The position numbers and the translations under genes were made by a program. Shown here one piece after another: positions 1 to 17,817 of a DNA stretch of 64,000 nucleotides. The DNA lies in contig NZ_UETC01000002.1 in assembly GCF_900116765.1 (NCBI RefSeq), positions 372,001 through 436,000 on the forward strand, given 5' to 3'. Source of the stretch: Jannaschia seohaensis. GTDB lineage: Bacteria; Pseudomonadota; Alphaproteobacteria; Rhodobacterales; Rhodobacteraceae. The notes beneath the pieces are model-generated. The model did not search any database and had not been told where the DNA came from. It saw only the letters and a program-made list of their open reading frames with translations. Position 1 is the stretch's first letter, and each line of letters starts with the position of its first letter.

Positions 1-921
1 ATACTCCTTGAGCGCGGTGAAGAAGGGCGTCTTGTAGCGCCGGTTCACGCCCCGCAGGATGTTGAGATGCAACTCCAGGAAGTCCTCCTGGTTGTAGAAC
101 ACTCGACGGCAGCGACCGAGATCGAGCCCCGCGATATCCTCGGCGGAGCGGTCGGTGACCAGATAGGCGTCGAGCTCAGGCCGGATCTTGGCGATCAAGC
201 GGCACGTCTCGGGACCGTATTCATGCGGGTCGATATCGTCCACGCCCTCATTGCCCACGGGCCGGAGATAGCGGTTGAGGATCGGCAGATCGTTGCGCGA
301 CTTCAGCCGGAGCCCGGGCCGAACGACGACCGCCTGAACGTTGTGATTGAAGAGGATCCCGATCAGCGCGTCCTCGAGCGAAGGCACGACCACGGGCTCG
401 TAGATGAACGGATCCTCCGCCCGGCGCATCCTTTGCAGATTGGCGCGCAGGAACCGTTCCTGCTGCTCGTTGACCTCATCGACGATCATCACCTCGAAAT
501 AGGGCCGCCCCAGGGCGCGCGCCTCGGGCGAGAGCGAGGCTTCGTCCTCGTAATCCTCGTTGTCGACCTCGTCGGTCCCCAGCGGGATGCGCCGCCGCCG
601 ATAGGCCCCGGAGGTCAGCGCCCGCGCAACGCGGCGCACCCCGACGGCAAGCTCTTCGGCATTTCCGTGGTTGAGATGCCGCCGCAGCATGTCGAAGGCA
701 TCGCGCCCGGGAAACGCCCAATAGGTCTCGATCGGGGTCAGTTGCTCGAAGAGTTCCTCGGCGCGCAGCAGCAGGCGCTTGAGCTGCGCGCTCTCCGGCT
801 CAGCGGAGTGCAGCCCCTCCGCCACTTCCCGCAGGACCGACCATCGATCCGCCCGCAGCTGTGTCGCGCTATAGTAGTCGCGGATCGAGGACAACTTTCG
901 TTCTGAAGACTGGAGGTTCAT
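1..921 (-). CDS. Orn/Lys/Arg decarboxylase, N-terminal part (runs off window)
   Basis: The first 307 residues of a fold-type-I, PLP-dependent basic amino acid decarboxylase; the catalytic part lies beyond base 1. The visible part ends in the hinge that precedes the PLP domain (RRYKTPFFTALKEY). Before it is a receiver-like wing domain (about residues 135-285) that includes RPELDAYLVTDRSAEDIAG, typical of this family. The ATG at 919-921 gives an N-terminus about 150 residues longer than in E. coli AdiA-like enzymes, so this is the long subfamily. The neighbours are an amidohydrolase, a TRAP importer and a PuuR-like regulator, which suggests an imported amino acid is decarboxylated to an amine. 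Which of arginine, lysine or ornithine is used cannot be told without the active-site domain. Confidence 0.82.
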   Translation of the reverse strand, partial: MNLQSSERKLSSIRDYYSATQLRADRWSVLREVAEGLHSAEPESAQLKRLLLRAEELFEQLTPIETYWAFPGRDAFDMLRRHLNHGNAEELAVGVRRVARALTSGAYRRRRIPLGTDEVDNEDYEDEASLSPEARALGRPYFEVMIVDEVNEQQERFLRANLQRMRRAEDPFIYEPVVVPSLEDALIGILFNHNVQAVVVRPGLRLKSRNDLPILNRYLRPVGNEGVDDIDPHEYGPETCRLIAKIRPELDAYLVTDRSAEDIAGLDLGRCRRVFYNQEDFLELHLNILRGVNRRYKTPFFTALKEY

Positions 922-984
922 CCGGCCGTACTCCCTTTGGCCAAGCCTGCATGTCCGTGTCGGCACGCGGGTCGCTTTGTCGTG

Positions 985-1953
985 TCAGTCCGATCCCATT
1001 TTGCCGCCGACGACGGAAAAGGCCGGTGGCGGGGCCTCTGGCTCCCGGCTGTGTTCGAGCGCGGTCCTTGGATCGGCGGCCCCGAGGCCGCTCTGCGCGC
1101 CTTGCTTCGGCGTCTCGAGGGGACCGAGGGTGTGAAGGTAGGCATCCGCCCCGCTCTGCCGGTCATAGACCGAGAACTCGGCCTCGCGATCGCGGAAGGA
1201 TTTCAGCACCTGCCCCAGCCCCCGCAGACCGGTCTCCCGCTGACGCCGCACCTGGTCCATGTCCACTTCGATCGGGAACATGTCCTCCTGACCGGCGGAC
1301 TGGTGCAGAACGGTCGCCGTCGGATCGACGACGATCGAGCGGCCGACGCCCCCCGCCGCCAGCCCGTTGACCGCGAAGACGTAGCATTGGAACTGCGCCG
1401 CGGTGGCCCGCGCGATGGACAGCTCCGCGTCGCGGTCCGTCGTGCCGGTCAGCACGGGGTTGAGCAAGACCTCGACCCCCTGGCTGGTCAGCTGCCGCGT
1501 CGTCTCCGGGAACCAGATGTCATAGCAGATCGACAATCCAAAGCGGCCGACATCCGGCACGTCGAAGATGCAGAATTCGGTCCCTGCCTCAACGCCCTCC
1601 TCGTAGGGCCGGAACGGAAACATCTTGCGATAGGTCGCGACGATCTCACCCTCGGGATTGATCACCACGGAGGTGTTGTAGACCTTGCCGTCCGCCGTCT
1701 TCTCGAACATCGAGCCGGGGATTAGCCAGATCCGATGGCGCTTCGCGTCCTCGCGGAAGCTGTCGAGCGTCTCGTTCGGGAAGAACTGCGCATATTGATG
1801 GAGCGGGCCGAACGGCGCCAGCTCGCTGAAGAGCACCATCTGCGTCCAGGGAAAGCGCGCCATCAGGATGTCGAGGCGGTGCCGCATGCCCTCCACGTTG
1901 GAGTGGAGGGCGGAGACGTGCATCTGAACGCCGGCGATTGCGAAAGGTGTCAT
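985..1953 (-). CDS. Carbon-nitrogen hydrolase (nitrilase superfamily)
   Basis: Cytoplasmic amidohydrolase of 322 residues. The Glu-Lys-Cys catalytic triad is visible as E44 (FSELAPFG), K110 (TYRKMFPF) and C143 (SICYDIWFPE). The ATG at 1951-1953 is preferred because the reading frame upstream of it runs into the uspA region and the alpha-beta-beta-alpha fold begins at MTPFAIAGVQ; a purine-rich AAGAAA lies just upstream. The family includes N-carbamoylputrescine amidase, beta-ureidopropionase and aliphatic amidases. Next to a basic amino acid decarboxylase, an N-carbamoylputrescine or omega-amide substrate is attractive, but that is inference. The C-terminal 40 residues are Pro/Ala/Glu-rich and probably disordered. 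Confidence 0.88.
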   Translation of the reverse strand: MTPFAIAGVQMHVSALHSNVEGMRHRLDILMARFPWTQMVLFSELAPFGPLHQYAQFFPNETLDSFREDAKRHRIWLIPGSMFEKTADGKVYNTSVVINPEGEIVATYRKMFPFRPYEEGVEAGTEFCIFDVPDVGRFGLSICYDIWFPETTRQLTSQGVEVLLNPVLTGTTDRDAELSIARATAAQFQCYVFAVNGLAAGGVGRSIVVDPTATVLHQSAGQEDMFPIEVDMDQVRRQRETGLRGLGQVLKSFRDREAEFSVYDRQSGADAYLHTLGPLETPKQGAQSGLGAADPRTALEHSREPEAPPPAFSVVGGKMGSD

Positions 1954-13688: not shown

Positions 13689-14393
<705 letters not shown>

Positions 14394-14566
14394 GCGGATT
14401 CCCTTTCGCCGGCCCAAAAGCCCCTTGACCAAGATGTCGCACCCCGTCCGATGACGAACGCGGCGAAAACCGACAGCGCACGGTCCCCAGGCGACCCTGA
14501 GATCCTTATCTGCCGATCCGCCGTCGCACGAGACGCGATCTGCGTCCAATCGAAGATTCTCGCCTC

Positions 14567-14600
14567 TTGCATGAAACGCCCTCATGTTCTATTTTTGTTC
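14567..14600 (+). promoter_or_regulatory. Promoter with overlapping LexA (SOS) box
   Basis: The -35 TTGCAT (14567-14572) and -10 TATTTT (14590-14595) are exactly 17 bases apart. The -10 sits inside GTTC-TATTTTT-GTTC (14586-14600), which is the alphaproteobacterial LexA box GTTC-N7-GTTC. Transcription would start about 7 bases after the -10, at or next to the ATG at 14603, giving a leaderless message. LexA bound here would cover the promoter. Confidence 0.75.
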
Positions 14601-14602
14601 CC

Positions 14603-15652
14603 ATGCTCGACCAGATGCTCCCGACCCCTGTCGCGACCCGGGGCGCGCTGTCCAACGCGGCCAGCCGGTTCGATCCCTACACGCGGGAGGTCGCGATGCC
14701 CGACCGCCCCAGGACCGAAGTGCGGGAGGAAGCGTTGGGGCGCGCTATCACGCGGAACAGCTCGCCCGATCTGGGCTTCGACCGGTCGATCAACCCGTAT
14801 CGGGGCTGCGAACATGGCTGCATCTACTGCTATGCGCGGCCCAGCCATGCATATCTCGGCCTGTCGCCCGGGCTCGACTTCGAGACGAAGCTAATCGCCC
14901 GGCCCGGCGCGCCGGAGGCGCTCGCGCGGGAATTGCGGGGCAAGGGCTACCGACCCGCCGTGCTGGCCATCGGCACGAACACGGACCCCTATCAGCCGAT
15001 CGAGCGGGACCGCCGCATCATGCGCGGCCTGCTAGAGGTTCTGCGCGACCATCGCCACCCGGTGGCGATCACCACCAAGGGCACGCTGGTCGAGCGCGAT
15101 ATCGACATCCTGGCCGAGATGGGGCCGGAACTGTGCCGCGTGGGCATCTCTGTGACGACCCTCGACGACGCACTCGCCCGCAAGCTGGAGCCCCGCGTCC
15201 CCGTGCCCTCGCGCCGACTGCGCGCCATCGCGCGGCTGGCCGAGGCGGGGGTCGTGGTCCGGGTGATGGTCTCGCCCATCATCCCCGGGCTGACGGATCA
15301 CGAGGTTGAGACGATCCTGGCCGCCGCCCGAGACGCGGGCGCGCAGGCGGCCAGCATGATCCCCTTGCGCCTCCCGCTCGAAGTGGCGCCGCTCTTCGAG
15401 GAATGGCTGCGCGAGCATGTGCCCGACCGGGCGCGCAAGGTCTTGAACCGCGTGCGGGAATTCCACGGCGGCAAGCTCTATGACGCGGGGTTCGGCCAGC
15501 GGATGCGCGGGCGCGGCGTCCATGCGGATCTGCTGCAGGCGCGCTTCCACCGGGCCTGCAAGCAGTTGGGCCTGGCCTATAAGCTGCCGCCGCTGCGCAG
15601 CGACCTCTTCGAGCGGCCGGGCCGTGCGGGGGACCAACTCACCCTTTTCTGA
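14603..15652 (+). CDS. PA0069-family radical SAM protein (SplB-like, COG1533)
   Basis: 349-residue radical SAM enzyme. The [4Fe-4S] cluster motif is C69-x3-C73-x2-C76 (CEHGCIYC), followed by the SAM-binding region LAIGTNTDPYQPIERDRRIM and VAITTKGTLVERDIDIL. The family is distantly related to spore photoproduct lyase, which repairs UV-damaged DNA, but its own reaction is not known. The ATG at 14603 is favoured because the promoter geometry places the transcript start there; a second ATG follows at 14615. The LexA box in its promoter supports a DNA-damage role and is the most informative feature of this gene. It is divergent from the corrinoid gene. Confidence 0.9.
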   Translation: MLDQMLPTPVATRGALSNAASRFDPYTREVAMPDRPRTEVREEALGRAITRNSSPDLGFDRSINPYRGCEHGCIYCYARPSHAYLGLSPGLDFETKLIARPGAPEALARELRGKGYRPAVLAIGTNTDPYQPIERDRRIMRGLLEVLRDHRHPVAITTKGTLVERDIDILAEMGPELCRVGISVTTLDDALARKLEPRVPVPSRRLRAIARLAEAGVVVRVMVSPIIPGLTDHEVETILAAARDAGAQAASMIPLRLPLEVAPLFEEWLREHVPDRARKVLNRVREFHGGKLYDAGFGQRMRGRGVHADLLQARFHRACKQLGLAYKLPPLRSDLFERPGRAGDQLTLF

Positions 15653-15697: not shown

Positions 15698-16603
15698 TCA
15701 ACTGTCGGACGGGCAGCCCGATGGCGCGGCAGGGCCCAGCTCGGCCAGCAGCGCGTTGTGATCCGACCCGTGGCGCCCGCCGCGCGCCGTCGCGACCTCC
15801 AGCCGTGCGTCCGCGACGAGGTGGTCGATGGGCAAGCGCAGCCACCCATCCGCCAAAGTGTAGGTCGTGTGCAGGCCGCCCGTGACCTCGCCCCGCGCCG
15901 CCCGCGCCACGCGGCCCGCGGCGTCCGACCAGGGCATCTGGTTGAAATCGCCGCCCAGCAGGATCGGCCCTGGCAGAGCGGCGATCTCGGCCACCAGCCC
16001 CGCGAGTTGCCGCGCCTGCGCGCCCTCGCCCGCGGGCCAGGGCCAGAACAGATGGACCGAGACGAGTGTCAGCGCCTCCACCTCGCCGAAACAGTCCGGC
16101 GGACGAAGCCGGATCCAGGCCGCCCCCGACGGCGTGCAACCGCTGTCGAGCACGGGCAGCCGTGTCAGCGCCGCCGTCGACACCCAGCCCGGCCGAGGAC
16201 AAATCCGAAGATGCCAGCCCTCCGGCCGACCGGCGAGCGCATGGATCGCCTCGCCGACCTCTTGCAGCGTGACGGTCTCGACCTCGGCCATCCGGTCCAA
16301 AAGATCCGGCGCCCTATTGCCCAGATGCAGGTTGTGCTGAAGATGCCGGATCGCCGCGCCTTCGGCCGGGCGCCCGGGGTCCACATGCCGCAGCACGTCC
16401 CAAGCGCCCAGCGCCGCGAGACAGATCATGGCGCCCCGCAGGACTCCCGGCAGAATGGACGGCAGCGCCAGCCCCAGCAGCACGACAACGAGATAGGGCT
16501 GCACGATCGCGAAGCTGTCGAGCGGCAGCCAAACCCGTCCCAGCAGCCCCGCGGCCAACGCCGCCAAAAGCACCAGCGTCAGGGCGGCGAACGCCAGGTT
16601 CAC
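15698..16603 (-). CDS. Endonuclease/exonuclease/phosphatase (EEP) family membrane protein
   Basis: 301-residue protein with two or three hydrophobic N-terminal helices (about residues 3-65) and a periplasmic or cytoplasmic EEP domain: an expected early Asn/Glu pair (HNLHLGN, TLQEVGE), GGDFNQMPWSD, PIDHLV and the catalytic GSDHNALLAEL. The architecture matches the YafD-like family of unknown substrate. Its ATG overlaps the methyltransferase stop by four bases (16600-16603), so it is translationally coupled to that gene, with no obvious functional link. A nuclease or phosphodiesterase role is likely from the intact motifs. Confidence 0.85.
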   Translation of the reverse strand: MNLAFAALTLVLLAALAAGLLGRVWLPLDSFAIVQPYLVVVLLGLALPSILPGVLRGAMICLAALGAWDVLRHVDPGRPAEGAAIRHLQHNLHLGNRAPDLLDRMAEVETVTLQEVGEAIHALAGRPEGWHLRICPRPGWVSTAALTRLPVLDSGCTPSGAAWIRLRPPDCFGEVEALTLVSVHLFWPWPAGEGAQARQLAGLVAEIAALPGPILLGGDFNQMPWSDAAGRVARAARGEVTGGLHTTYTLADGWLRLPIDHLVADARLEVATARGGRHGSDHNALLAELGPAAPSGCPSDS

Positions 16604-17607
16604 TCGCGCGCGCGACGGCGGCTGCGCCGCTCCCGGGTGGGGCCACGGCCGTCGGTTCCGTCGCTGTCGGACGAGAACCCGCCCAGCGCCTCAGTCACAT
16701 CGGCCAGGTCGGGGATGGGACCGCGCGGCGTCGATTCGAGCGCCGCGCGCATGGCCCGCAGATGCTCCGGCGTGGTCCCGCAGCATCCCCCGATGATCGT
16801 CGCCCCCGCATCGCGGGCCAGGGTCGCGTAGCGCGCCATCAACTCGGGCGTGCCGTCATAGTGAATGTGACCGTCGTGATATTTCGGGATGCCCGCATTG
16901 CCCTTGGCGATCACCGGCAGCGATCCGGTGAACCCCATGACGGTGCGGATGAGGTCGGCGGCGCCGACGCCGCAATTCGCGCCATAGGCCAGCGGAGGAT
17001 GCGGCAGACGGACAACCAGCCGGGACAGATCGGCCGAGGTGGTGCCCATCATCGTGCGCCCGGCCGTGTCGAAGCTCATGGTCACGCACCAGGGCATGTC
17101 GGCCAGCCGCGCGGCCTCGCCCGCGGCCTTCAACTCCTCCGGGGCGCTGATCGTCTCGACCCAGAGCACGTCGGCCCCGCCCGCCTTCAGCCCCTCGGCC
17201 TGCTGGTGGAAGATCTCGACCGCGGCCTCATGAGTCAGCGGGCCCATCGGCGCCATGATCTCGCCCGTGGGCCCCATGGAGCCCGCCACCACCACGGGCC
17301 GCCCGGCCGCATCCGCGATCTCGCGCGCGATCTCGGCGCCCATGCGCGACAGCTCTCCGGCGCGGTGGCCCGCATCGTGCAGCTTGAGCCGCGCCGCGTT
17401 GCCGCCGAAGGTGTTGGTCAGGAACAGATCGGACCCGGCCTCGACCGAGCCCCGATAGAGCGCGCGTACCTTGTCCGGCTCCGTCTCGTTCCACAGCTCC
17501 GGGGCGTCGCCGGATTGCAGCCCCATATTGAAAAGGATCGTCCCCGTCGCGCCATCGGCCAGCAGCCAGTCGCGGTCGCGCAGGAGGGTCGAGAGAGATG
17601 TAGCCAT
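16600..17607 (-). CDS. bmt: Homocysteine S-methyltransferase (betaine-homocysteine methyltransferase-like)
   Basis: 335-residue zinc-dependent homocysteine methyltransferase. The three zinc ligands are visible as C212 (GANCGVG) and C275-C276 (GGCCGTTPEH), with the barrel start WLLADGATGTILFNMG and the TNTFGGNAARL segment. The ATG at 17605-17607 matches the family N-terminus. Roseobacters studied by genome-wide fitness assays are reported to have a methionine synthase split into a homocysteine-binding protein like this one, a separate corrinoid protein and a separate methylfolate-binding protein. The corrinoid gene at 13689-14393 fits the second role. Direct betaine-dependent methylation is the alternative. 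Confidence 0.9.
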   Translation of the reverse strand: MATSLSTLLRDRDWLLADGATGTILFNMGLQSGDAPELWNETEPDKVRALYRGSVEAGSDLFLTNTFGGNAARLKLHDAGHRAGELSRMGAEIAREIADAAGRPVVVAGSMGPTGEIMAPMGPLTHEAAVEIFHQQAEGLKAGGADVLWVETISAPEELKAAGEAARLADMPWCVTMSFDTAGRTMMGTTSADLSRLVVRLPHPPLAYGANCGVGAADLIRTVMGFTGSLPVIAKGNAGIPKYHDGHIHYDGTPELMARYATLARDAGATIIGGCCGTTPEHLRAMRAALESTPRGPIPDLADVTEALGGFSSDSDGTDGRGPTRERRSRRRARE

Positions 17608-17692
17608 GGCGGACTCCGATCGGGCAGTCCTCTCTATGACCGCGCCCGGCCCCGGGGGCAAATCGAAATCCCTCATGTGGGAGGTGAGCCGC

Positions 17693-17758
17693 GGCACAAG
17701 TGGCGAAAAGCTGTTTAGAATTCGAGGCATCCTCTCCGTTTGTGCCCCGATTTGTGCC
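17693..17758. repeat. Three copies of TTGTGCC in a divergent promoter region
   Basis: TTGTGCC occurs at 17740-17746 and 17752-17758 (12-base period) and inverted as GGCACAA at 17693-17699, between the methyltransferase and the TerB-like gene. Even spacing near one helical turn suggests binding sites of a regulator for one or both genes. No match to a known SAM or SAH riboswitch was recognised. Confidence 0.35.
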
Positions 17759-17817
17759 ATGATCCAGCCCGCCGGGCGGGGCACCAGAGACCCAGGTCAC
17801 CAATTTCGGAGGCGGCT

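Follow-up and report, generated by a model that had tools for sequence, protein, structure and literature searches.

A LexA box over the -10 element of a probably leaderless PA0069-family radical SAM gene in Jannaschia seohaensis

The 64,000-nucleotide (nt) stretch of the Jannaschia seohaensis genome analysed here, called the window throughout (positions 372,001 to 436,000 of contig NZ_UETC01000002.1), contains a gene for a radical S-adenosylmethionine (SAM) protein of the PA0069 family that is preceded by a GTTC-N7-GTTC motif, the LexA box of Alphaproteobacteria (Table 1). An earlier note on this DNA, made from the sequence alone, had placed the box over the -10 element of a promoter that would start transcription at the ATG of this gene, and direct reading of the sequence agrees with that arrangement. 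The start codon occupies positions 14603-14605, and a spacer of 17 nt separates TTGCAT from TATTTT. No Shine-Dalgarno-like run precedes this ATG or either of the 2 other candidate starts, ATG 14615 and TTG 14567.

Table 1. Features at the PA0069 locus, in window coordinates.
Feature	Position	Strand	Remarks
-35 element TTGCAT	14567..14572	+	36 nt ahead of the ATG; read from the sequence
LexA box GTTC-N7-GTTC, GTTCTATTTTTGTTC	14586..14600	+	ends 2 nt ahead of ATG 14603; conserved in orthologues
-10 element TATTTT	14590..14595	+	inside the LexA box; starts 13 nt and ends 7 nt before the ATG
PA0069-family radical SAM gene	14603..15652	+	349 amino acids; start probably leaderless

The number of GTTC-N7-GTTC motifs is not significant by itself. 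The window holds 2 copies against 1.33 expected, and at least 2 are reached in 38 of 100 shuffles; the second copy (14325-14339, minus strand) lies within the divergent gene for a corrinoid protein. In the whole genome the motif occurs 99 times, compared with 58 for the reversed pattern. Motif counts alone were dropped as evidence for a LexA site. It is the position of the site ahead of the radical SAM gene, together with its conservation, that raises it above chance.

The earlier note had suggested scanning PA0069 orthologues for the box, and the scan found it kept. In the taxonomic family to which the window belongs, 109 of the 149 genomes gave a match to the PA0069 model NF033668 (106 over the cut-off). 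Upstream DNA was fetched for 108, and 107 entries were anchored on the CxxxC motif, with up to 390 nt examined; L183 and L238, in which no such anchor could be recognised, were excluded, and G123, a chance match, was not fetched. The exact box is present in 101 of the 107 entries and the reversed control pattern in 1. It lies on the gene's own strand in 100 of the 101, L167 being a match on the other strand. Six entries have no exact box (L053, L059, L161, L181, L184, and L211), and 3 of these (L161, L181, and L211) have a box with one mismatch, in place. Within the genus, all 20 members, the window included, carry the box upstream, a count that leaves out L259, a second, weak match of one genome that offers no anchor. 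In a separate genome collection the box was found at 72 of 80 loci, the misses being L086 (at a contig end), L103, L135, and 5 Pseudomonas loci.

Beyond the family, a draw of 299 genomes from the phylum contained 117 with an NF033668 match, 111 of them over the cut-off. Genes over the cut-off were fetched from other alphaproteobacterial families (60) and other classes (39); 12 same-family genomes and 6 genomes with sub-cut-off matches only were left out. Five of the fetched genes had no anchor (L399, L404, L367, L372, and L387), which left 58 and 36 anchored genes. GTTC-N7-GTTC precedes 54 of the 58 genes from other alphaproteobacterial families, with L347, L348, L349, and L394 as the misses, and CTGT-N8-ACAG precedes none of the 58. 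The latter motif is the LexA box of gamma- and betaproteobacteria, and it precedes 26 of the 36 genes from other classes, likewise near the start, with its inverted control at 0 of 36. GTTC-N7-GTTC and its reversed control are each found at 0 of these 36 genes, and 10 of the 36 are without CTGT-N8-ACAG. All 5 Pseudomonas loci of the genome collection carry CTGT-N8-ACAG, 15-18 nt before the ATG. The genomes within these sets are related and do not count as independent trials. The box is thus kept upstream of orthologues and follows the specificity of LexA in other classes, a switch expected under LexA control and not by chance. That the box is a chance match might be argued from the 1.33 copies of the motif expected per window, but the contrast of 101 of 107 with 1 of 107 for the control, along with the switch of motif between classes, refutes this explanation, which we regard as next to impossible.

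Genes chosen as controls in the genus behave as LexA control would lead one to expect. A box stands no further than 300 nt from the matched start of lexA in 20 of 20 members and of recA in 20 of 20, compared with 0 of 20 for moaA, and these lexA and recA promoters carry the same box as PA0069. In the genome of the window both lexA and recA are present and boxed, and boxes also precede uvrA and an imuB-type cassette, which indicates a normal SOS system. For this, 50 of the 99 boxes in the genome were inspected (the first 30 given, plus 20 with A+T-rich or T-ended centres). The second gene of the cassette encodes an ImuB-type polymerase (Pfam IMS), while ImuA was recognised by a look at the sequence only. 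Boxes start 44-70 nt before the matched coding start in lexA and 109-142 nt before it in recA, unlike the PA0069 gene of the window, and these distances mean that lexA and recA have leaders or other starts. With the box conserved upstream of orthologues, the operators specific to each class, the lexA, recA, and moaA controls, and a box that overlaps the promoter -10 in the window, the PA0069 gene is almost certainly under LexA control, as the earlier note had proposed in assigning it to the SOS response.

Upstream of recA (regions L284-L299), 13 of the 20 genus members have a pair of boxes that lie on opposite strands at a distance of about 30 base pairs (bp). In 5 of the 20, the upstream one stands directly after TTGCAAAT, as is also the case for many PA0069 relatives.

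The position of the box relative to the start codon was compared across relatives. In the family of the window, the start codon lies 11-13 nt past the box in 89 of 99 relatives and exactly 12 nt past it in 70, which places the box of those 89 in the promoter spacer, so the overlap with the -10 that the earlier note described is not a family rule. Relatives with a standard start distance form 2 sets, 89 from the family and 31 from other families of the class. At positions that were not used for choosing the sites, the 89 family relatives have T at -8 from the box in 97 %, and the two bases that follow the box are T in 82 % and A in 98 %, respectively. GGAG, GAGG, or AGGA occurs 5-15 nt upstream of the start in 1 of the 89. 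Relative to the ATG, 54 of the 89 family relatives and 29 of the 31 class relatives have TTG at -36 to -34 (-36 in the window); TAnnnT lies between -13 and -11 in 53 of the 89 and in 14 of the 31 (-13 in the window). In the class set the TTG is part of the box, and its count is therefore not independent of the box. The register of the box, given as the position of its start relative to the ATG, is about -27 in the family, in the spacer; about -39, over the -35, in 31 of the 53 class entries with a box; and -17 in the window, over the -10.

By these distances, the promoter and the ATG tend to hold one spacing, which is that of a leaderless gene. The marks of such genes, a -10 hexamer that precedes the start codon by 5-8 nt and the lack of a Shine-Dalgarno sequence, are both seen at the gene in the window. 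The leaderless geometry proposed in the earlier note is thus supported by the spacing in family and class and by the near absence of Shine-Dalgarno-like sequences. The steps between registers are 12 and 10 bp, close to a helical turn; that this matters is speculation.

An observation on another gene of the same genome concerns L142, where a box (1201-1215) precedes a gene for an IrrE-like metallopeptidase (Pfam Peptidase_M78; open reading frame 653-1189, minus strand). Here GTTCCCTAAATGTTC stands 11 nt before the ATG, near the box-to-start spacing of PA0069 in the family, and this gene too may belong to the SOS response and have a leaderless start.

The protein encoded in the window matches NF033668 (PA0069 radical SAM) with 457.4 bits against a cut-off of 360, which confirms the family identity given in the earlier note. 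The second-best NCBIfam match is to the Rv2578c-family radical SAM proteins (NF038135), at 220 bits, and falls below the cut-off of 430 for that family. The radical SAM motif CxxxCxxC is formed by C69, C73, and C76 and is present in 33 of 33 PA0069 sequences. In a VIA-align comparison of the predicted structure, ranks 1-6 were all spore photoproduct lyase, aligned over 260-267 residues compared with 197 for the next match, so the predicted lyase fold runs across most of the chain. PA0069 therefore has in common with spore photoproduct lyase (SplB; PDB 4fhc and its mutants; PF20903) the predicted overall fold and the CxxxCxxC motif. According to a profile comparison, it also has the TDP motif that lies just past the cysteine position of the lyases in the genus. 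Sequence-only searches of the PDB, with the protein or with an alignment, had no spore photoproduct lyase among the matches listed, the best of which were NifB in one search and SkfB and NifB in another; the link to the lyase came from the predicted structure and from the profile comparison with the genus lyases. The kinship in fold that the earlier note had drawn to this enzyme is upheld by the structure comparison.

The best overall explanation, to which we give a probability of roughly 0.85, is that a working LexA operator and a leaderless promoter control a lyase-fold enzyme that acts on damage. In the undamaged cell, LexA bound to GTTC-N7-GTTC would cover the -10 up to the start codon and block RNA polymerase. 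DNA damage would activate RecA and bring about the self-cleavage of LexA, which would open the promoter. The RNA would then begin at the ATG or one base ahead of it (14602/14603) and carry no 5' leader. The most likely target of the radical SAM product is damaged DNA or nucleotides, on which it would act by a chemistry that differs from the cysteine-dependent hydrogen return of the lyase. This explanation builds on the box and its conservation, the geometry of promoter and start, the family, the predicted fold, and the absence of the cysteine, all taken from sequence and comparison, and from these we infer LexA binding, induction, the RNA start, and the substrate.

Several observations weigh against this explanation. 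The promoter is weak by consensus: the TTGCAT-17-TATTTT layout given in the earlier note is present, but its description as a consensus promoter was too strong, since TTGCAT agrees with TTGACA at 3 of 6 positions and TATTTT with TATAAT at 4, and a strict sigma-70 scan of 14380-14700 returned no promoter. Entries with a nonstandard start distance, which were left out of the standard-start sets, number 10 of 99 in the family and 22 of 53 among boxed class relatives. TTG and TAnnnT are in place together in only 27 of the 89 relatives from the family (14 of 31 in the class), and a looser count of GGAG, GAGG, AGGA, or AAGG anywhere in the gap between box and start gives 7 of 89 in the family. Within the genus, the ATG lies 22-35 nt after the box and is accompanied by a Shine-Dalgarno-like sequence in 14 of 20 members (11 of 20 with the strict pattern). 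Five of the 58 entries from other alphaproteobacterial families have the reversed control pattern. No NF033668 match was seen in 40 of the 149 genomes of the family, and the gene is therefore dispensable. The hydrogen-donor cysteine of the lyase (C140 of 4fhc) is missing from PA0069, where the equivalent position 125, as placed from alignments in which hhalign sets a gap beside it, is T in 27, A in 3, and S in 3 of 33 sequences. Finally, the accessible part of a text on the LexA sites of Dinoroseobacter shibae names no such gene.

The 14 members with leaders mean that leaderlessness is not fixed in the genus. A TTG stands exactly 19 nt before a box in 17 of the 20 members, the window included; 16 of those 17 have a TA behind the first GTTC, so that their -10 falls within the box, like that of the window. 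Within the genus, only the window and L246 have the ATG as close as 2 nt past the box; in L246 the TTG fits (-36) and the TAnnnT, at -9, makes for a poorer fit. Three genus members have the ATG at +10 to +14 after the box, a layout that looks older, and L416, from another family, shares the layout of the window, its ATG lying 1 nt past the box. With leaders in most of the genus and the close ATG in only 2 members, the start in the window looks like a local loss of the leader that restored the spacing of the family.

A different account is that another promoter gives the transcript a leader, or that translation begins at ATG 14615 or TTG 14567, the leaderless geometry being coincidental in this genome. 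It would agree with the leaders and Shine-Dalgarno-like sequences of the 14 genus members and with an open frame that extends up to TTG 14567. We consider it unlikely, given that the distances of TTG and TAnnnT from the ATG are the ones at which these elements peak among relatives in family and class, and that none of the 3 starts is preceded by a Shine-Dalgarno-like run. L246, which has the same layout, offers only the ATG 2 nt past its box, with no other candidate before the conserved part of the protein, and this makes ATG 14603 a likelier start than 14615. A leaderless start is thus probable for the window, as judged from the layouts compared. A further member of the genus, L258, has 3 GTTC half-sites at 11-base steps before PA0069, which amount to 2 overlapping LexA boxes.

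As to the enzyme, the missing donor cysteine suggests that the PA0069 reaction differs from that of the lyase or uses another donor. Beyond the 3 cluster ligands, no cysteine is common to all 33 PA0069 sequences. The position of lyase Y98 is F in 29 of the 33, and Y in the protein of the window. True lyases matching PF20903 (Pfam SPL), with the catalytic cysteine, occur in 5 of 20 genus genomes (L419-L423), and none of these 5 has a LexA box within 1500 nt upstream. PA0069 could be a genuine spore photoproduct lyase with another hydrogen donor, as its nearest fold and the shared CxxxCxxC and TDP motifs would allow. This seems rather improbable to us, with T, A, or S in place of the donor cysteine in 33 of 33 sequences, F in place of its tyrosine partner in most of them, and no PF20903 match in the genome of the window at E <= 0.001; large amounts of spore photoproduct are, moreover, not known from non-sporulating cells. 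A doubtful but less remote alternative is that LexA control is as described but that the enzyme modifies RNA, a component of the nucleotide pool, or a protein during the damage response, in place of repairing DNA. SOS genes are mostly DNA repair genes, which weighs against this, as do the 6 top structure matches, all to spore photoproduct lyase. We give an even chance to a role of PA0069 in handling damaged DNA.

The LexA regulon published for Pseudomonas aeruginosa reportedly includes PA0069. A gene named splB was predicted to be regulated by LexA in alpha- and betaproteobacteria in 2012 (PMC3323433). SplB, COG1533, was described as SOS-regulated in several species and predicted to be so in Bacteroidetes (PMC8565304), and SplB-like enzymes have been tied to SOS operons (PMC3765255). 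The splB of PMC3323433 and PMC8565304 resembles PA0069 in being a radical SAM gene with host-type LexA boxes upstream; in the parts seen, these accounts do not separate PA0069 from the true lyase and do not describe leaderless starts. Agrobacterium, Paracoccus, and Rhodobacter, which were analysed there, carry boxed PA0069 genes (L099, L100, L107, L130, and L091), and their splB may be PA0069. A table of LexA targets in Streptomyces venezuelae lists a radical SAM gene, which may or may not be related to PA0069, with values of 19.97 and 1.31 that we interpret as fold changes from RNA sequencing and chromatin immunoprecipitation sequencing (PMC9380542). No report of leaderless SOS genes in Alphaproteobacteria, or of the conserved leaderless layout with its box in 3 registers, was found in the open-licence literature, which is weak evidence of absence. 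The LexA regulation is, then, already known in kind, and PA0069 is set apart from the true lyase here.

A wider interpretation, which we put forward only tentatively, is that PA0069 is a phylum-wide SOS enzyme with a new radical reaction on damaged DNA, that leaderlessness in Alphaproteobacteria is under selection, and that the operator moved in steps of about 10-12 bp. The spacing of -35, -10, and ATG would have been held while the operator came to lie over the -35, in the spacer, or, in the window, over the -10. On this view, leaderless translation may keep production of the enzyme going while damage impairs ribosomes or initiation factors. The vague annotation as a "splB-like photolyase" gives way, on the present results, to a testable case, that of a damage-controlled enzyme found in several classes, under 2 LexA motifs, and without the lyase cysteine. 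Identification of the lesion on which PA0069 acts could add a direct-reversal reaction to those known in repair, and a leaderless promoter whose operator changes register is a clean system for studying how operators move without breaking the promoter.

Downstream of PA0069, on the same strand, a gene for ribonuclease HII (rnhB) is present at 30 of the 80 loci in the genome collection, many of them from Rhizobiales (for example L126, 4318-5007). Its identity was established with Pfam in one locus and by similarity in the rest. The gaps between the 2 genes range from -249 to +370 nt over the 30 loci, too wide a range for an operon to be shown.

In the window, the divergent neighbour (13689-14393, minus strand) encodes a two-domain B12-binding corrinoid protein, with scores for MtbC/MtgC-like proteins that are below the curated cut-offs. 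The possibility that the box serves this gene was rejected, as the box is about 190 nt from its start and in relatives tracks the promoter of the radical SAM gene. The corrinoid protein gene lies near a gene for betaine-homocysteine methyltransferase (16600-17784, minus strand).
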